From positions 1 to 62,834 of the forward strand of contig JANXWB010000018.1 in NCBI GenBank assembly GCA_025351345.1: 62,834 nucleotides of DNA, in the 5' to 3' direction. The position numbers and the translations under genes were made by a program. Below, in pieces: positions 5,233 through 45,728 of the stretch. Position 1 is the first letter of the stretch. Each line of letters begins with the position of its first letter. Source of the DNA: Synechococcales cyanobacterium GL140_1_metabat_312. Its GTDB lineage: Bacteria; Cyanobacteriota; Cyanobacteriia; Leptolyngbyales; Leptolyngbyaceae. Under the pieces are notes generated by a model that was given only the letters and a program-made list of their open reading frames with translations, was not told the DNA's origin and searched no databases.

Positions 5233-5442
5233 ATGGGCGATCTTTGGAGTACGGTTTCAAAATATCCACGTTTTTTGATTGGTGTGATGCTGGGTGTGAT
5301 CCTGAATGGATTTTCTCCACTCATGCCACTGTTTAAACGCCCCATCACCGCGATCGCTGTAGTGGCGATGCTGATTGCTATTCTGTCTTTCTTTGTTTTC
5401 ACATTGAAAGCCATGTTGGGAGTTGAAGTAGAAGGTTTATAG
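5233..5442 (+). CDS. ycf33: Ycf33 / DUF751 family membrane protein
   Basis: This 69-residue protein has two membrane helices (about residues 13-31 and 39-58). The start, GDLWSTVSKYPRFLIGVMLG, matches the Ycf33/DUF751 pattern (W-x-x-V-S-x-Y-P-R-F) seen in cyanobacteria and red-lineage plastids. Its function is not established; mutants in cyanobacteria have been linked to cyclic electron flow. It lies upstream of rbfA, a gene order I recall from other cyanobacteria. Its TAG stop is the first three bases of a 30-base perfect palindrome. Confidence 0.85.
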   Translation: MGDLWSTVSKYPRFLIGVMLGVILNGFSPLMPLFKRPITAIAVVAMLIAILSFFVFTLKAMLGVEVEGL

Positions 5443-5469
5443 ATCAGATGATCTAGATCATCTGATCTA
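5440..5469. repeat. 30-base perfect palindrome with four GATC sites
   Basis: The sequence from TAGATCAGATGATC to its mirror GATCATCTGATCTA is self-complementary over all 30 bases, with no loop, and contains four GATC tetramers. It includes the ycf33 stop codon. There is no T-run after it, so it is not a canonical intrinsic terminator. It could act as a weak terminator or mRNA 3' end, or as a cruciform or methylation-sensitive site, given the Dam-type gene that starts 250 bases away. Confidence 0.85.
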
Positions 5470-5604
5470 GTGTACTTCATGGGTGATCTCAGCTCAAGGT
5501 CTAATGCTTAATAATTAGTTGAAGATATATTTTCGATAGTTTCTGATCGACACTTTGGGTTTTCAGTTCGAGTTTTCAGTTTTTTGAACGTGCGGAGCGT
5601 AGCA

Positions 5605-37798: not shown

Positions 37799-37860
37799 GC
37801 TCTTCGCGCGAAGAGCTAAGAAGCGCAAAGATAAGAGTGTAAAAGAGCTAAGGGCTATGA
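37799..37860 (-). promoter_or_regulatory. Palindrome and conserved block downstream of variable repeat 1
   Basis: GCTCTTCGCGCGAAGAGC (37799-37816) is a perfect 18-base palindrome. Bases 37793-37860 also align with 39861-39940, downstream of the other variable repeat, through CGATCGC, AAGAAGCGCAA, AAGAGTGTAAAAG and CTAAGGGCTATG. The template repeat lacks this block. In the Bordetella phage DGR a hairpin or cruciform just downstream of the variable repeat helps target homing; this one is a candidate for the same role. Confidence 0.55.
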
Positions 37861-38672
37861 AGAGTCTTCGGAACACAACTCACAACACGAAAACCGATAT
37901 CGTGGCCGCGCGCGCCCGCAGCAAAGTCGTAACGGTAAGCAGAACGGCACCACCTAGGAATGTTGAACCAGGAACCACCCCGCAAAACTCTTGCTGCACC
38001 TGGCTTTGAGCTATTTTCAAGCCATGCACTGCCACTATCTGGAGCCTCATCATAATTTCCATGCCAATGGTCCTCACACCATTCATAAACATTTCCATGC
38101 ATGTCATACAAACCAAAAGTATTTGCTGGAAACGTTCCGACGGGTGTCGTCTTTTCTAAATATTGGCCCTCTGACCCGTCAGCATGATGAGTATAGTTAC
38201 CGTCATAGTTGGCTAATTCGGTCGTTAACGTCTTCCCGAAAGCAAAAGGAGTCTTTGTTCCACCACGACATGCATATTCCCATTCTGCTTCACTCGGCAG
38301 TCTGTACGATCGTCCTGTTTTAGCCGTCAACCGATCGCAAAACTCTACGGCTTCATCCCACGAAATTTGTTCTACGGGAAGATGGTTTCCTTTGAAGTTT
38401 GAGGGATCTTCTTTTAGTTTGATATTCACTGTTGGATAATCAGCCACAATTCGCCATTGTGCTTGGGTGACTTGATATTTCCCTATAAAGAAGTCTGGTA
38501 CTGTCACTAAATGCTGCGGACCTTCATTATCACGTCGCTCCGGCTCATCTTCGGGTGAACCCATCTCGAATCTGCCGCTAGGAATGAGAACCATATCTAG
38601 GTTTATACCTTTCCCAAGGTCTTCTGGGTAGAATTGGGCGGTGAGTTTGCGGCGGTGAATGGTTAGAGGCAT
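37848..38672 (-). CDS. FGE/C-type-lectin variable protein 1 of a DGR
   Basis: This 274-residue protein is essentially one formylglycine-generating-enzyme-type (SUMF1/FGE-sulfatase) domain with a C-type-lectin fold. Landmarks are MVLIPSGRFEMGSPEDEPER, YQVTQAQWRIV, LPSEAEWEYACRGG and FGLYDMHGNVYEWCEDHW. The C-terminus is VLRGGSWFNIPRWCRSAYR, then YDFAAGARGHDIGFRVVS. Bases 37869-37985 (variable repeat 1) match the template at 38845-38961, with differences mainly at template adenines. Variable residues fall where the fold presents its ligand surface. Such proteins are usually binding modules, not active FGEs. It lies 3' of the template, unlike the partner target. Confidence 0.9.
   Translation of the reverse strand: MPLTIHRRKLTAQFYPEDLGKGINLDMVLIPSGRFEMGSPEDEPERRDNEGPQHLVTVPDFFIGKYQVTQAQWRIVADYPTVNIKLKEDPSNFKGNHLPVEQISWDEAVEFCDRLTAKTGRSYRLPSEAEWEYACRGGTKTPFAFGKTLTTELANYDGNYTHHADGSEGQYLEKTTPVGTFPANTFGLYDMHGNVYEWCEDHWHGNYDEAPDSGSAWLENSSKPGAARVLRGGSWFNIPRWCRSAYRYDFAAGARGHDIGFRVVSCVPKTLHSP
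37869..37985 (-). repeat. DGR variable repeat VR1
   Basis: Aligned without gaps to the template repeat (offset 976). By hand, 16 bases of 117 differ; 14 are at template T on the plus strand (A on the coding strand), plus A-to-G at 38881 and C-to-G at 38890. The VR replaces template Asn codons by Tyr-Asp-Phe and Gly-His-Asp. Confidence 0.9.
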
Positions 38673-38844: not shown

Positions 38845-38961
38845 CGGAACACAACTCACAACACGAAAACCGATATTGTTATTGCGCGTCCCCGCAGCAT
38901 TGTTGTTACGGTAAGCAGAACGGCACCTCCTAGGATTGTTGATCCAGGAACCACCCCGCTT
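38845..38961 (-). repeat. DGR template repeat (TR)
   Basis: On the minus strand the segment translates as [18 protein letters not shown], then [18 protein letters not shown]. It carries AAC/AAT codons at the positions that vary in both target proteins. It lies 25 bases beyond the RT remnant's stop, has no start codon of its own and sits in an otherwise gene-free 314-base gap (38673-38986). Of 25 coding-strand adenines I count 23 that differ in at least one of the two variable repeats. Bases left of 38845 (toward VR1) diverge quickly from both targets, so the initiation-of-homing end is near 38845-38870. Confidence 0.9.
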
Positions 38962-38986: not shown

Positions 38987-39602
38987 TTAGACGATCAAAG
39001 ACCCGATTCCCCCAAATCTCCCTTGATAAGTGTCTTGCTGGAGTTCTTTAAGACGTTTGCGCGATCGGCGTAGGTTGTCGTTGCGAATGCGAATCCGGTC
39101 GGGCAAGACTCGAAACCCTACAAAACTTACACCGATGTGCGTTTCGGATAACTGACTCTTGATTGGGTGAATTCGTAGTCGTAAGCTTTCTAAATACTCT
39201 TCGATCGCAATTCTGGCTTTTACTAAAGTTGCACGATCGTCTGAAAACAATGCAAAATCATCGACATAACGCAAATAATTCGGCAGTCGCAAGCGATCGG
39301 TAACAAAATGATCAAATCTATTCAAATAACAATTTGCAAAGAATTGGCTAGTCAGATTACCGATGGGAAGTCCACGCGATCGATCTGGGTTTGGGTTCAA
39401 AGATACGAAAGGTGCGATAGGTGCCGGGTTGATAGATTTGAGTCGTAAGTTCGGTTTGGATTTGAAAGAGTTCGGCTTCGAGGTTGTAGTTGAATGCTAG
39501 GACATTACTGCGATAGCGCTTACTGCGTTGGGCTTGGCGAGCGGCAACTAGGAGATTTTCAAAGGTGCTGATTTGCGGATAAAGATTGCCATAACGTTTC
39601 AT
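38987..39602 (-). pseudogene. DGR-type reverse transcriptase, internally deleted and frameshifted
   Basis: The first frame (39602-39357) reads MKRYGNLYPQISTFENLLVA, continues with LAFNYNLEAELFQIQTEL and ends in TYRTFRIFEPKPR, the N-terminus of the cyanobacterial DGR/retron-like RT family. The second frame (39400-38987) resumes at RSRGLPIGNLTSQFFANCYL (RT motif 4) and LRYVDDFALF (motif 5, catalytic YVDD). Roughly 100 or more residues that should lie between, with motifs 1-3 and the first catalytic Asp, are missing, and the junction at about 39357-39400 is out of frame. The C-terminus after TYQGRFGG also looks short. It cannot encode an active polymerase. Confidence 0.85.
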
Positions 39603-39604
39603 AT

Positions 39605-39820
39605 TTAAACAAAACTTGCTTCAACATATTCACAGATGGATCTAGGTTGTGGAAGTGCATCGCCATCACTTTTTAAGCCTTCAAGATGGAATTCTATTGC
39701 TTCTTGAATCAGCATTCTGACTTCCTCAAGAGTCTCTGCTACGGCGACACAACCGGGGAGATCCGGAATATAAGCTCCATAGCTAGTCGCTCCTTGTTCA
39801 ATGACGATCGCATAGCGCAT
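39605..39820 (-). CDS. HicB-like antitoxin-fold protein, solitary
   Basis: This 71-residue protein starts MRYAIVIEQGATSYGAYIPD and continues LPGCVAVAETLEEVRMLI, the HicB partial RNase H-like fold (Y-x-A-x-x-P-D-L-P-G-C). A helix and a short tail follow, with no visible DNA-binding domain. No HicA toxin is next to it: the 109 bases upstream (39821-39929) hold only the VR2 downstream block. It ends two bases before the RT start codon. Many cyanobacteria carry such solitary copies. It may be translationally coupled to the RT, or be a passenger. Confidence 0.75.
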   Translation of the reverse strand: MRYAIVIEQGATSYGAYIPDLPGCVAVAETLEEVRMLIQEAIEFHLEGLKSDGDALPQPRSICEYVEASFV

Positions 39821-39860: not shown

Positions 39861-39929
39861 TCGATCGCGCTTGGCGCGAAGGGCTAAGAAGCGCAAGGAC
39901 AAGAGCGCAAAGACAAGAGTGTAAAAGCG
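39861..39929 (-). promoter_or_regulatory. Imperfect hairpin and conserved block downstream of VR2
   Basis: GCGCTTGGCGCGAAGGGC (39867-39884) is the diverged counterpart of the perfect palindrome after VR1; two of nine pairs are broken. The following AAGAAGCGCAA and AAGAGTGTAAAAGCGCTAAG are shared with 37817-37855. An internal repeat (AAGAGCGCAAAGAC) makes this copy longer. Confidence 0.5.
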
Positions 39930-41678
39930 CTAAGGGCTATGAAGAGTCCTCGGCACACAACTCACAACACGAAAACCGAGACTGAAGTAGCGCGTCCCCG
40001 CAGCATAGCTGACACGGGAAGCAGAACGGCACCTCCAAGGATTGAAGATCCAGGAACCACCCCGCAATACCTTTATAGTATCGGAATCCGGATCGGATCC
40101 GGAATCATTAGAGGCATTCCAAATAGTTCCGTCTGTAGGTGCTTCTTCGTAATTGCTATGCCAATCATCCGCACACCATTCCCATAGATTTCCATGCATG
40201 TCGTATAAACCAAAATCGTTTGCAGGAAATGTTCCGACGACAGTGGTTTTATTTTTAGGTTTACCTTTACGACCTCGACCATACAAATTATCAGCGTCAT
40301 AGTTAGCTAACTCAGTATCGATCGTCTCCCCAAAATGAAACGGAGTAGTCGTCCCCGCACGGCAAGCATATTCCCACTCCGCCTCACTCGGCAGCCGATA
40401 TTCCCGTCCCGTCTCCAGCGATAACCGCGCACAAAATTCCACACAGTGATCCCATGAGACTCGTTCTACAGGCAAGTTATCGCCCTTAAAGTTAGAAGGA
40501 TTAGCGTCTAGTACAATTTTAATCTGAGGTAAGGCCGTCGCCACCGATCGCCACTGCGCCTGCGTAACCAAACACTGTCCCATATAGAATTCTGGCACCG
40601 TAACCCAATGTTGTGGTCTCTCGTCAGAAGCAGACTCCAGTTCCTCCTCCGGCGCACCCATCAGAAACCGTCCAGCGGGAATCTGCACCATATTCAACTT
40701 AATGCCATTACCCAAAGGCTCAACGTAGCCCGCAACCGTTGCGCTACCGGGAATAATCTTGAATAATTCTTTCTTCTTTTTACGACGCAAGAATCCAGAT
40801 TCTTCGACTGATAACTGTGCGGTCTTAAATTCAAAAGTAATGTTCTGCCATTCTAATTTCGGCAGTTCATCCACAACCAATTCCTCCCCCTCTTCAAGAC
40901 TCGCCGTCTCAAACTCAAACGTCTGAAGCGCTGGATATCCCAGCAATGAATTCGGTAACGGATTCCCCAACAACGCCATCGGAAAGGCCAACGTCCGATC
41001 GCCCACCACAAACTCGATCGCCGCATCCCCCTTAACCTTCTCCGGCTGCCTCATCGCCTCACTCACCCTCCCCGCCAACGCCACCAACCCCGAATGCTCC
41101 AACAATCTCGGCGCAAGCTCCTGCACAATTCCCGACAACCAAGCTAACTCCGCCTTCCCCGCCCCAAAACTCCCCGGCTCCGTCACCGCCCCACCCCAAT
41201 GGGCAAACTCATCCCCCATCTGCCCCACTGCCTCATCCCGCAACTCTGCCACACACAACATCGCCGCCCACTGCTGATACTTCTGCTGCCGCTGCGTCAC
41301 ATAGGAATTCGTCCGAGCTAAATGCTGCACATAGCCTACCAACACCTTCGCTATTATCTCCACCTGTTCCGGCTCCTCCCGCTCCAACCGCCCCAATAAC
41401 TCCGCCTGTACCCCCGAATCCATCACATACCGCTCATACCCCACCTCCCGACACAAATCCGACAACAATAAATCTGCCTCCGCTACCCAAGGTAACAACG
41501 GCAAAAACTGACTCCGCAAATACCCCACCAACTCTGGTGTCAACACAATAGGCACCGCCGCATACCACAGAAATCGCTCATAAGACGGCTCAAAGCAGCG
41601 TACAAAGCGATCGATCCCCCACTCCACCTCATTCATCTCAGCACTCGCCCGACGCACCATACCAGTAGCCTCCAGCAC
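39930..41678 (-). CDS. FGE/C-type-lectin variable protein 2, fused to conflict-system N-terminal region
   Basis: The 582-residue protein has an N-terminal helical region of about 300 residues (VEWGIDRFVRCFEPSYERFL; WAAMLCVAELRDEAVGQM) that I take as the part adapting it to the adjacent vWA and MoxR proteins. A basic linker (LRRKKKKELFK) follows. The FGE domain comes next: MVQIPAGRFLMGAPEEELES, LPSEAEWEYACRAGTTTPF and GLYDMHGNLWEWCADDWHS. It ends VLRGGSWIFNPWRCRSASR, then VSYAAGTRYFSLGFRVVS. Bases 39951-40067 are variable repeat 2. The start is GTG 41678, overlapping the vWA stop by one base (ATG 41660 is an alternative). Confidence 0.88.
   Translation of the reverse strand: MLEATGMVRRASAEMNEVEWGIDRFVRCFEPSYERFLWYAAVPIVLTPELVGYLRSQFLPLLPWVAEADLLLSDLCREVGYERYVMDSGVQAELLGRLEREEPEQVEIIAKVLVGYVQHLARTNSYVTQRQQKYQQWAAMLCVAELRDEAVGQMGDEFAHWGGAVTEPGSFGAGKAELAWLSGIVQELAPRLLEHSGLVALAGRVSEAMRQPEKVKGDAAIEFVVGDRTLAFPMALLGNPLPNSLLGYPALQTFEFETASLEEGEELVVDELPKLEWQNITFEFKTAQLSVEESGFLRRKKKKELFKIIPGSATVAGYVEPLGNGIKLNMVQIPAGRFLMGAPEEELESASDERPQHWVTVPEFYMGQCLVTQAQWRSVATALPQIKIVLDANPSNFKGDNLPVERVSWDHCVEFCARLSLETGREYRLPSEAEWEYACRAGTTTPFHFGETIDTELANYDADNLYGRGRKGKPKNKTTVVGTFPANDFGLYDMHGNLWEWCADDWHSNYEEAPTDGTIWNASNDSGSDPDSDTIKVLRGGSWIFNPWRCRSASRVSYAAGTRYFSLGFRVVSCVPRTLHSP
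39951..40067 (-). repeat. DGR variable repeat VR2
   Basis: Gap-free alignment to the template (offset 1106) shows 17 differences in 117 bases; 15 are at coding-strand adenines of the template, plus A-to-C at 38848 and A-to-G at 38881 on the plus strand. Template NNN becomes Val-Ser-Tyr and the next NNN becomes Tyr-Phe-Ser. Confidence 0.9.
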
Positions 41679-42757
41679 TAAAATAATTGTCCCATTAATT
41701 TCTCCACCATCTGCCCAAACCCATCCCGATCCATCACAGACATCGGCAACACCTCAGCCAAGATTTCCGCACTACTTCGGTCCCACCGTTCCCTCGGCAT
41801 CGGATTCAACCAGCCCACCGCCGCCGTCCTCGATCGCACCCCTCTCAAAAACCGCATCGTCGCCAAAATCCTTTCCTTCTCGCGCCGTCCCCGCGCCGCC
41901 CCCGCATCACTCACCATCACCACACTCGTCTCATCATCAATCACCCCCAACACCTCCGCCAGCGCAATCGGCTCCGTCAAATGCTCATCCCGATACAGGA
42001 ACTCCTGGGGCACATTGTAAAAGTAAAAAACATCAAACCGTTCTAAGTTTGCATCCTCCCTCGCCGTCTCCACCAGATCCCGACTCAACCGATGAAACGG
42101 CACCATCGATCCCTGCTGATCAATCAACAACAACAGCCGCATATGGTTCACGCGGCGATGCCCCATCACCGGACCCACATATATGCCTGTCTTAGCCACC
42201 CGAACTACTGTCAGCCTAATATCTACCACATCCCTCGGCCCATCCGCCCGCAACCGCCGCATCGATCGCCAGCCATAGGACATCGATCGCCGTGTCACTG
42301 GACCCATGCCTCTCAATTCAAACTCATCCATCGCCGTCGCCAGATTCGGCACCTGCACAGGCAACGCACTAAACCCCGCTGTCACAGGTGTTTCCACCGA
42401 TCGTCCCTGCGGTTTAGGACTAGTCTTCTGTTCCGATCGTTTCTCAGAGCCACGATCGGTTTCAGTTTTATCGTCCTTATCATCAGACTGTGATCGATCG
42501 TCCTTAAAATCCTCCTTCTGCGTCTCCCAAGCCACCACAATCTCCCGCCACAGCTTCTCCCAACTCATCTGCTCCGCCACAGAATGACACCACAGCGATT
42601 TTAGTACCTGCTCTAAAGCATCACTATCTGCCAACCCAAAGCCACCCTGTACTGCGTCGATCGCCGCCTGCAACTCACCCACTCCCAAATGAAACTCCCT
42701 ACGGACCTTCCCAAACGCATCCTGAACCCTTTGCAATACCAGCGGAACATCATTCAT
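41678..42757 (-). CDS. vWA-domain protein of a MoxR-vWA conflict system
   Basis: This is a protein of about 359 residues. The N-terminal 100 residues are helical, followed by an acidic Asp/Lys/Ser-rich linker (SQSDDKDDKTETDRGSEK). A vWA-like domain occupies about residues 185-359 (MRLLLLIDQQGSMVPFHRLS; DVFYFYNVPQEFLY; SVVMVSDAGAARGRREKE). The metal site is degenerate: DQQGS instead of DxSxS. It follows moxR by four bases and overlaps the FGE gene, so the three are coupled. The frame is open to 42826, but ATG 42757 has a good site (GGGGGATAGGAAA). Known MoxR-vWA pairs act as an ATP-driven chaperone with an adaptor. Confidence 0.82.
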   Translation of the reverse strand: MNDVPLVLQRVQDAFGKVRREFHLGVGELQAAIDAVQGGFGLADSDALEQVLKSLWCHSVAEQMSWEKLWREIVVAWETQKEDFKDDRSQSDDKDDKTETDRGSEKRSEQKTSPKPQGRSVETPVTAGFSALPVQVPNLATAMDEFELRGMGPVTRRSMSYGWRSMRRLRADGPRDVVDIRLTVVRVAKTGIYVGPVMGHRRVNHMRLLLLIDQQGSMVPFHRLSRDLVETAREDANLERFDVFYFYNVPQEFLYRDEHLTEPIALAEVLGVIDDETSVVMVSDAGAARGRREKERILATMRFLRGVRSRTAAVGWLNPMPRERWDRSSAEILAEVLPMSVMDRDGFGQMVEKLMGQLF

Positions 42758-42761
42758 TTTC

Positions 42762-43793
42762 CTATCCCCCGATCGTCGCCGCGTCAAATTTTTGCCAATC
42801 TTTTTGCACCTTAAACAGCACCTCACGAAATGGAATTTGTTTAGTATCCGATTGCAATAACGGCAGCAAAGTTATCAAATTACCAAACGTCATCATGACA
42901 TCCACCCAATCGAGAAACTCACTCGTCCCCGGATTTTTATACAGTTCTCCCGATTCCCGAAGCCGTAAAAAACGATCGATCGCAGCACTTATAAATTTAG
43001 TTTTAAGTTCAGTTTTAAGTGAAGTCTCTGCTGTTGCAGATTCTGTCCTCCCAGTGATAGCTTCTCCATAGTGCGCTTCCACAATTTTCTGTAGTCCAGT
43101 GGGACTGGGAAACTTCATATAGTAGTAAACGCAACGCCGTAAAAATGGCAACGGCAAATAACCTCTCTCACGATTACTGGTAATAATCACGATCGGCGGA
43201 TGTAGTGCTGGACCCACTTGTTTTAGTTTTCCATTCTCAAGCCCAGCCTCAGCAATCTCAAACGTCCAAGGATCATCCAAAACCGTCAGCAGATCATTCG
43301 GAAAATCCAAATCTGCCTTATCAATCTCATCAATCAGAACAACAGCCGGACGATCGCCCGAACTAAATGCTTTTCCTAGTGCTCCATAGCGTAAATAATC
43401 CTCTGAATTACTTGGATCTCGACCCAAATTAATTGCATTATTCGAGTTTTTTTGGGCAACCTGAACATCATGCAATCGCAGCAACGCATCATATTCATAG
43501 AGTCCCTCCTTTGCTAAACTCGTCGATCGAATATCCCACCGATGGAGCACCAACCCCAATTCATACGCGATCGCCGTCGCCAACCGAGTCTTACCGCACC
43601 CCGCCTCGCCCTCCAACAACAAAGGCCGACCCAAATAGATTGCTAGATTAATTGCCTGTTTCAGCTCGGCATCGTCTGCCACATAAGCCTCAACCTCACT
43701 GGGAGAATCAGGATGAGCATCCTTCGGACGTTTGGCCACATCGCCCGTGAACGTATACCTCGATCGTTCTTTCCGTTGATTTCGATTATTCAT
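42762..43793 (-). CDS. MoxR-type AAA+ ATPase
   Basis: This is a protein of about 343 residues. Walker A is GEAGCGKT (about residues 62-69) and Walker B is AVVLIDEIDKADLDFPNDLL. Sensor 1 is in IITSNRERGYLPLPFLRRC, whose Arg pair gives the finger. The pattern YLGRPLLLEGEAGCGKTRLA and WDIRSTSLAKEGLYEYD is that of MoxR-like ATPases paired with vWA proteins in cyanobacterial conflict operons. I chose ATG 43793 over GTG 43802 because AGAGG is better spaced. It is followed closely by the vWA gene. It probably remodels or arms the downstream FGE or CHAT effectors. Confidence 0.9.
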   Translation of the reverse strand: MNNRNQRKERSRYTFTGDVAKRPKDAHPDSPSEVEAYVADDAELKQAINLAIYLGRPLLLEGEAGCGKTRLATAIAYELGLVLHRWDIRSTSLAKEGLYEYDALLRLHDVQVAQKNSNNAINLGRDPSNSEDYLRYGALGKAFSSGDRPAVVLIDEIDKADLDFPNDLLTVLDDPWTFEIAEAGLENGKLKQVGPALHPPIVIITSNRERGYLPLPFLRRCVYYYMKFPSPTGLQKIVEAHYGEAITGRTESATAETSLKTELKTKFISAAIDRFLRLRESGELYKNPGTSEFLDWVDVMMTFGNLITLLPLLQSDTKQIPFREVLFKVQKDWQKFDAATIGG

Positions 43794-43828
43794 AAGTCGC
43801 ACACCTCTTAACTTTAAAATTACTAGTT

Positions 43829-45307
43829 TTAACTCGCCAAATTTTCTAATTCCCGCAAAAGTTTAGCTTCTGAGGCTCCCGGTAAACCATTTGTAAATCG
43901 AAAAATACTCCTAGGAATTTTCTCCAATTGACCTGGCAAAAGTTGTAGATTTGAATAGCATTCTATCCATTCTCGAATCTCGTCTTCTTTCCATTTCACA
44001 TTAGGTAAAGCAATGAATTTATCTGAATACGGCTTGGTAAGCTTACAGGTAAACTCATCCAGAAATACTTCATTAACCTCTGATTCCAAGGTCACTACAG
44101 CAATAAATACTGCTGATGAATTTTGCGATCGAAATTCCGGCATCCTCTGTAGCAACTTCCCCCAAAACTTCTCAAGGAACCAACACAAGAAGCTGTTATC
44201 TCCATCTAAATCCGGCAGATTCACTTCTAGGAAAAATACATTACACCCCTTCAGTCCAATCTTAATTTTCTCAAAAATCTGATCCATCGAAATCTGCTGA
44301 GACGATGAGATTTCGATTGCAAGGTGTTCTCCCAAATTCATCAGAAATTCGGTTTCAGTTGGTACATTATCCAGAAATCCAACTTTATAGGGCTTTGAAA
44401 ATCGTCCAATTCTCTCACTAGCGATCGATTTCTCTAGATATTTAATGTATCGCTTCCCTAAGAATTTCTCATAACCTTGAAACAAAAACAAAGAAGTATC
44501 AGATTTGTTCCTTTTGATTTTCTTGAAAATTTTGGAAGTCCCTTTTTTAGCTTGATCATGATCAAGCTGATACAAATCTTCCTCCCAACGATTAGTAATT
44601 TGACGAAATTCTGTAGCCTCTGAAGCAGGTTTATTTTTAATAGTGATTGACGAATCAATCTCAGCAATTGTTTGATTTAACCAATCTGAGTCTTTATTGT
44701 CTTCAGTGGTTTGCCGCTGTTGATTAGATTCCGATCGTGTTTCTTGCTCCAAGATCTTCTTGTCGCGAAATAGAAGATAGGGCTTAAAATCATCAAACGT
44801 ACTTGAAATCTCTGTTTTCCCTAATTGAAAAGCCTGCTCATAGCTCATTCCCCCAAAAATGCCTTCATAGAATGGAATCGCGAACTCCTGTGATGATTCC
44901 TGTGCAATTTTTTGCTTCATCCCAATTACACAAGGCACGTGCTGATGTATCGTTTCCGCTTGAACTCTACTATGACAAGCATTTAAAACAATACACTTCA
45001 CAGAAAAACATTGAAGCAATTTCAAAAGCCGATCGCCCGAAATCTCTTGAATAGTTCCATCTTCAGCTTCTATCACTAGGCCTGGTTTGCCATGACCATG
45101 ACCTACAAAGTGAATGATTTCGGGTTTATAATTCACTAGTGCGCGTCGCAAACGTTCCCAAGTCAAAGCTAGTTCTTGTTCGATTTTAAATTGAACGCGG
45201 TCTCGTGACTGCTCCCACGCACCTGTAATCTCTCGAATCTCTCGATCGAAGTGAAACCGATCGGAATCCTTTGGATTCGCCGCCAAGATCAAAAGAGTTT
45301 TTGTCAT
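43829..45307 (-). CDS. CHAT-protease-like protein with C-terminal inactive STAND-type domain
   Basis: Residues 1-200 form a CHAT (caspase-like) domain. TKTLLILAANPKDSDRFHF is the start, HFVGHGHG (about 66-73) holds the catalytic His, and CIVLNACHSRVQ (Cys about 111) the nucleophile. After a variable linker, the C-terminal 280 residues (LFLFQGYEKFLGKRYIKYL; FFLEVNLPDLDGDN; NVKWKEDEIREWIECYSN) resemble an NTPase-derived module without a P-loop, the so-called inactive STAND domain. The frame is open to 45388, but the CHAT start MTKTLLILAANP fits ATG 45307. Such proteins are predicted proteolytic effectors of conflict systems. Confidence 0.8.
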   Translation of the reverse strand: MTKTLLILAANPKDSDRFHFDREIREITGAWEQSRDRVQFKIEQELALTWERLRRALVNYKPEIIHFVGHGHGKPGLVIEAEDGTIQEISGDRLLKLLQCFSVKCIVLNACHSRVQAETIHQHVPCVIGMKQKIAQESSQEFAIPFYEGIFGGMSYEQAFQLGKTEISSTFDDFKPYLLFRDKKILEQETRSESNQQRQTTEDNKDSDWLNQTIAEIDSSITIKNKPASEATEFRQITNRWEEDLYQLDHDQAKKGTSKIFKKIKRNKSDTSLFLFQGYEKFLGKRYIKYLEKSIASERIGRFSKPYKVGFLDNVPTETEFLMNLGEHLAIEISSSQQISMDQIFEKIKIGLKGCNVFFLEVNLPDLDGDNSFLCWFLEKFWGKLLQRMPEFRSQNSSAVFIAVVTLESEVNEVFLDEFTCKLTKPYSDKFIALPNVKWKEDEIREWIECYSNLQLLPGQLEKIPRSIFRFTNGLPGASEAKLLRELENLAS

Positions 45308-45371
45308 ATCAGTATTGAGAAGCCCAAATAAACCCAAAATACACTCAGCCTCTGGGATTGACATTCCAGGA

Positions 45372-45728
45372 CTATTTTTCCAACTCATTAATAATCTTCA
45401 CAATCTCTTCCGGTGTTGCATTCTCTACCTCAATCTCCCGATTGCCCGAAATCACCAATACCGACTGCACAGGCTGCGACTGAAAATCCCGCAGATGTTC
45501 CAGAAAACTCAATCCCTGATCAGCTACCTGAACCGTCTGCCCCGTTAAATCAACGATCGCCTTCATTGTAATTAATACCCGTGCAAACTTATCACTGGTC
45601 TCGCCCTGAGTCACCACCGTTGCATCTTCCACCGCGTAATTCACCTCATAACCGGGCAATCCCTCCAACGCCTGAGCAACTGCGATCGCACTTGTCCCTT
45701 CCAGGGAAATTTGAATTTGGCTCATCAT
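45372..45728 (-). CDS. EACC1-like small protein (effector-associated constant component)
   Basis: This 118-residue soluble protein has no Cys and an alternating strand/helix character: QIQISLEGTSAIAVAQALEG, then VLITMKAIVDLTG and LVISGNREIEVENATPEEIV. Size, fold pattern and position just upstream of a CHAT gene and a MoxR-vWA pair match the EACC1 component described for prokaryotic conflict systems. It may present or gate the protease. The assignment relies on context as much as sequence. First gene of the minus-strand cluster that ends at 37848; a 77-base gap separates it from the helicase-like gene upstream. Confidence 0.55.
   Translation of the reverse strand: MMSQIQISLEGTSAIAVAQALEGLPGYEVNYAVEDATVVTQGETSDKFARVLITMKAIVDLTGQTVQVADQGLSFLEHLRDFQSQPVQSVLVISGNREIEVENATPEEIVKIINELEK

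Follow-up and report, generated by a model that had tools for sequence, protein, structure and literature searches.

The locus described here raises the question of whether a short repeat that differs from two neighboring gene ends almost only at its adenines belongs to a diversity-generating retroelement (DGR), and whether that element still operates. We analyzed a stretch of 62,834 nucleotides from the draft genome of Synechococcales cyanobacterium GL140_1_metabat_312, referred to as the window, in which a preliminary description made from the DNA letters had pointed out a template repeat (TR, 38845-38961) and two variable repeats (VR1, 37869-37985; VR2, 39951-40067). All three lie on the minus strand, and each variable repeat ends an FGE-sulfatase gene. 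A recount of the gap-free 117-base alignments agrees with that description in every figure, as VR1 and VR2 differ from the TR at 16 and 17 positions, respectively, 14 of the 25 template adenines on the coding (minus) strand are changed in VR1 and 15 of 25 in VR2, and 23 of the 25 differ in at least one VR. Only 2 of the 92 non-adenine bases of the TR, read on the minus strand, are changed in VR1 and 2 of 92 in VR2. The enrichment at template adenines is therefore strong (Fisher test, p = 9e-10 for VR1 and 1e-10 for VR2), and the even spread of substitutions over the four template bases, which the preliminary description had named as speaking against its reading, is absent.

When VR1 or VR2 is used as the template instead, mismatches at adenine fall to 0 of 16 and 0 of 17, and because the bias vanishes in this direction, 38845-38961 is identified as the template. 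The two VRs differ from each other at 20 of 23 template adenines and at 2 of 91 other sites when the first codon is left out. That codon is AAG in the TR and TTG (Leu) in both VRs, while the VRs of relatives read CTG and CTT (Leu) in two cases and GTT (Val) in a third; judged from these sequences, it probably lies outside the copied stretch. Counted from the second TR codon, 12 of 23 adenines are changed in VR1 and 13 of 23 in VR2, with 2 of 91 other bases changed in each, and the adenine bias is still decisive. A search of the genome with the TR matches only the TR itself and the two VRs, the next best match having an E of 0.2. With change that is adenine-specific and runs in one direction, two 3′-terminal VRs served by one template, and the remains of a DGR-lineage reverse transcriptase (RT) adjoining them, the stretch at 38845-38961 is the TR of a DGR, as the preliminary description had proposed.

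The two diversified genes, both on the minus strand, are of the kind that DGRs target. Target gene 1 (37848-38672) encodes 274 aa with an FGE-sulfatase domain (PF03781, E 1e-58) and ends in VR1, and target gene 2 (39930-41678) encodes 582 aa, carries the domain at residues 329-572 (PF03781, E 4e-53) and ends in VR2, its N-terminal half being without domain assignment. The FGE-sulfatase domain has a C-type-lectin fold, and the VRs form the 3′ ends of genes of the C-type-lectin/FGE ligand-binding type, a feature of DGRs. Both target genes are still open reading frames. Upstream of target gene 2 on the minus strand lie adjacent genes for a vWA (CoxE-like) protein (41678-42826, PF05762), an AAA+ ATPase (42762-43802, AAA_5) and a protein with CHAT protease and inactive-STAND (iSTAND) domains (43829-45388, PF12770 and PF19995), with the AAA_5, VWA_CoxE, CHAT and iSTAND matches all above their cut-offs. 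The ATPase matches the MadB ATPase model below its cut-off, and its context suggests that it is of MoxR type. We presume that the target genes are the sensor parts of a vWA/AAA+/iSTAND conflict system.

The RT that would be expected to copy the TR is broken, a point absent from the preliminary description. Its N-terminal piece (39357-39602, minus strand) covers approximately residues 1-73 of an intact RT, and its C-terminal piece (38987-39400, minus strand) begins at approximately residue 192, keeps the YVDD box and has lost the last 35-40 residues. The two pieces lie in different reading frames, indicating an internal frameshift, and, as read from the alignment, roughly 118 codons are missing between them (residues 74-191, numbered as in the intact relative L036). 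The deleted segment includes the stretches ISAAPY..HHALCN and LQCD..KYFP.ID, the latter of which we take to hold a catalytic aspartate. The internal junction sits within a GATCGATCG stretch. At the 3′ end, the RT is fused to one arm of a dispersed, MITE-like inverted repeat (38994-39030, plus strand), and the RT frame now ends in this arm. The best other copies of this arm are 84-90% identical (E 4e-4 to 3e-3), with weaker ones below; copies of the repeat (GATCCCCCTAAATCTCCCTT...AAGGGGG) occur on other contigs, in L132, L133, L134, L135, L136 and L032, and its second arm was seen by eye in L132, L136 and L032.

What remains of the RT is well preserved. We scored conserved residues against 60 intact relatives, which were retained from 77 RT sequences by length (335-385 aa), an MKR or VKR start and the presence of HH, with 17 dropped. 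The N-terminal piece keeps 21 of 21 residues at 95% conservation and 27 of 28 at 90%, and for the C-terminal piece the corresponding figures are 45 of 53 and 57 of 69; relatives that were themselves left out reach 0.93 to 1.0 in the columns with 95% conservation. Six of the eight misses of the C-terminal piece at 95% fall at the deletion edge, where residues are absent or misaligned, and the other two lie past the repeat junction, such that its homologous part has no misses at 95%, and the 3 further misses at 90% are true substitutions. Such good preservation suggests a recent loss.

The locus is without the intact DGR-clade RT that a functional DGR requires, and the genome as a whole offers no replacement. 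In this 100-contig draft of 3.85 Mb, which is rated 99.99% complete and carries two PsaA/PsaB genes of photosystem I, the single RVT_1 match is the fragment at this locus, and searches for a second RT with the C-terminal piece (E limit 1e-8) and with a profile built from 8 intact RTs (E limit 1) hit this locus only. The accessory protein Avd, a feature of functional DGRs, was likewise not found in either window or genome. Among the best 80 of 273 related loci, 76 have an Avd match upstream of the RT, and the Avd matches of two related loci, tested against NCBIfam, are DivGenRetAVD; tblastn gave no significant match in the window (best E 0.48), nor was one found in the genome. The place that Avd holds in relatives, directly upstream of the RT, is occupied in the window by a HicB-like antitoxin ORF (39605-39820, minus strand, PF15919). 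The DGR signature on which the preliminary description rested therefore stands, while current mutagenic activity does not follow from it, since the RT has an internal deletion, a frameshift and a truncated end, the locus lacks Avd, and the genome yielded neither a second RT nor an Avd. A broken DGR-lineage RT beside intact TR/VR repeats is the configuration of an inactivated (degenerate) DGR.

To place these features, we used the best 80 of the 273 related loci, to which the C-terminal RT piece is 57-74% identical and of which 74 are cyanobacterial by title. An adenine-biased TR/VR pair was detected in 69 of the 80, and in 64 of these 69 the RT is followed directly on its 3′ side by a TR of the same orientation, as in the window; VRs lie on both sides in 18 of the 69, again as in the window, and upstream only in 43. 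A first sorting gave 63 intact RTs, 16 broken ones and one cut by a contig end. Three supposedly broken RTs (L048, L066 and L099) were rejected, as they had merely been aligned past their stop codon, and the corrected sorting is 66 intact and 13 broken among 79 loci. Nine of the 13 broken-RT loci have a detectable adenine-biased TR/VR pair; several of these loci are metagenome bins in which frameshifts may be sequencing errors. Where only TR/VR pairs with an adenine share of 75% or more are counted, non-adenine mismatches number 0 to 6 in 86 pairs from intact-RT loci (0-2 in 68 of 86) and 0 to 4 in 14 pairs from broken-RT loci (0-2 in 10 of 14). As a clock of inactivity such mismatches proved uninformative, and because the 2 per VR found here are no higher than in related loci, the repeats by themselves give no sign of prolonged inactivity.

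Two of the related loci are of interest in their own right. In Leptolyngbya sp. PCC 6406 (L085, 4952-6498), the RT is split by approximately 464 bases while the TR and two VRs are still adenine-biased, and this locus is probably another inactivated DGR. In a Pseudanabaena MAG (L061, around 5360-5540), the RT is without its first 37 residues and a TR/VR-like sequence lies just upstream, possibly through recombination between template and RT gene.

Comparison within the genus extends the picture beyond a single genome. The sister species G002, represented by a draft that is 69% complete, has an ABC1 gene identical to that of the window at 1845 of 2028 bases and carries an ortholog of the VR1 gene. 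At the syntenic site, the flanks of the TR nearly adjoin each other beside palindromic repeats, and the TR itself is missing; searches of this 69% complete draft with the RT C-terminal piece and the RT profile found no RT. The G002 VR1 differs from that of the window at 18 of 23 TR adenines and at 5 of 91 other sites, and the gene outside the VR is identical at 535 of 684 bases. Because the VR1 differences fall mainly at template adenines, hypermutation was most likely active beyond the split and ceased later; if the VR1 genes are orthologs, at least one of the two lineages still underwent homing once they had separated.

A third species, G003, has homologs of the VR1, VR2, vWA, AAA+ and CHAT-iSTAND genes in one place. 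The space between its target genes (L126, 8477-9634), which in the window holds the RT and TR, is taken up in G003 by toxin-antitoxin genes (HicA and a HicB-like gene) together with two ORFs of 130 and 97 aa, and neither an RT nor a TR was found between the two VR genes. Its VR1 and VR2 differ at 12 of 23 adenines and at 19 of 91 other sites, counts that show an eroding adenine signal. G003 has one 33-residue Avd stub (85% identity) away from the target genes, while searches with E values of up to 1 gave no Avd match in G000, G001 or G002, the other three of the four genomes of the genus searched. G001 has FGE genes, only a weak TR match and no RT match; the RT profile found nothing in G001 or G002 and a chance-level match (E 0.57) in G003.

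Taken with the lesions in the window, these observations make it very probable that the locus is what remains of a cyanobacterial DGR whose mutagenesis has now stopped in this genome, most likely one of a familiar type of element that fell inactive not long ago. RT and Avd would once have copied the TR RNA, writing random bases opposite its adenines, and the mutated copy would then have replaced the 3′ ends of the two FGE-domain genes. Avd would have been lost, with the HicB-like gene now in its place, and the RT would have lost its codons in the frameshifting deletion and its end to the dispersed-repeat arm, an order of lesions that we infer. Mutagenesis would accordingly be off today, and both target genes, which are still open, would now carry fixed variants. 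More tentatively, and on balance doubtfully, the states of loss in the genus may together reflect a genus-wide process in which the hypermutation machinery was shut down stepwise and partly independently (with losses of RT and Avd in the window genome, of the TR at the corresponding site in G002, and of RT and TR in G003, where an Avd stub is left elsewhere), while selection kept the diversified genes as a frozen, germline-like recognition set.

The good preservation of TR and VRs would also be accounted for if the element were still active, receiving RT and Avd in trans from a plasmid or prophage that the assembly lacks. Full-length relatives of the window RT lie on cyanobacterial plasmids in 5 of the 10 records listed, from 15 found, with avd annotated in the two records examined, so a lost or unassembled plasmid could provide both proteins. 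Trans diversification of degenerate loci has also been proposed for Thiohalocapsa PB-PSB1 (Dore et al. 2024, PMC10907252), but the donor described there is intact within the same genome, and none was found here in an assembly rated essentially complete. The template itself also argues against continued supply. TR base 80 (0-based) is T, whereas VR1, VR2 and the G002 VR1 have C (the equivalent base in G003 is C in VR1 and T in VR2), which makes a change in the TR after its last transfer to either VR probable. A trans-acting plasmid DGR is possible, though unsupported, and we consider ongoing supply in trans unlikely.

An assembly or sequencing artefact concealing an intact RT is very unlikely. 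The assembly is a draft in 100 contigs, and the GATCGATCG stretch at the internal RT junction could mislead an assembler, but the absence of Avd, the frameshifting loss of some 118 codons and the replacement of the 3′ end by a repeat arm are three separate lesions, too many for one misjoin, and in the sister draft G002 a DGR part is likewise absent from this site, namely the TR. The preliminary description had already set ordinary divergence aside. An origin by plain gene duplication and divergence, with no retroelement, has virtually no chance of being correct even though the FGE family that includes the two targets has many copies in related genomes, as it is refuted by the base-specific, one-directional counts at template adenines and by the RT remnant between the repeats.

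The reading of an inactivated cyanobacterial DGR agrees with what has been described elsewhere. Vallota-Eastman et al. 2020 (PMC7517822) describe cyanobacterial DGRs with C-type-lectin targets, and the DGRs cited from that study share with the window a cyanobacterial host, a VR that ends a ligand-binding gene, and signalling or conflict domains. For all3226 of PCC 7120, the same report notes remnant TR-VR homology with no nearby RT genes or pseudogenes; unlike the cases cited from it, the window retains the TR and both VRs while, genome-wide, RT and Avd are either destroyed or undetected. Inactivated DGRs with intact VR/TR repeats appear in the Fig. 4 legend of Schillinger et al. 2012 (DiGReF, PMC3521204), and DGR inactivation itself is therefore already known. 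As in those examples, a broken RT here stands beside TR/VR pairs with almost only adenine changes; the lesions given there are a nonsense mutation, a frameshift and an insertion element, whereas the window combines an internal deletion, 3′ truncation and Avd loss with a sister-species comparison.

The degenerate DGR loci of Thiohalocapsa PB-PSB1 (Dore et al., PMC10907252) likewise show MITE-like damage, with MITE-like repeats replacing DGR core parts and targets kept at degenerate loci. MoxR-type conflict systems lie next to them, and the neighboring gene cluster of the window may be of this type. PB-PSB1 keeps one complete locus per class, in contrast to the window genome, where searches gave no intact RT. 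MoxR-vWA ternary conflict systems, including an iSTAND type, are described by Kaur et al. 2020 (PMC7159879), and the row of vWA, AAA+ and iSTAND-containing genes upstream of target gene 2 resembles them. The FGE domain of the window is on a separate protein, whereas in most DGR-linked VMAP systems of that account it is fused to vWA.

The interest of the locus is moderate and lies in species of one genus that show different states of loss. It is a placed example of what follows the loss of targeted hypermutation, with the target genes remaining open. Given strains to compare, one could test on it directly whether the targets of a DGR keep their usefulness when no further diversification takes place. 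It also warns that adenine-biased repeats alone are no proof of an active DGR.

A third FGE gene, with caspase (Peptidase_C14) and FGE domains (contig C33, L032 1504-3405, minus strand), was rejected as a current target, being too diverged and matching the VRs over only 47 bases; a copy of the dispersed inverted repeat adjoins its 3′ end. Hairpins lie downstream of both VRs on the minus strand, one with a perfect 7-bp stem (37799-37816) about 50 bp from VR1 and one with a 6-bp stem (39865-39879) about 70 bp from VR2. In phage BPP-1, a hairpin downstream of the VR is a homing enhancer. The TR flank of the window likewise has a 7-bp stem. A wider comparison is suggestive at most: 100 VR flanks from relatives have a median stem of 6 and 72 TR flanks one of 5, against 4 for 172 shuffled sequences, and stems of at least 8 bp occur in 8 of 100, 2 of 72 and 3 of 172, respectively.
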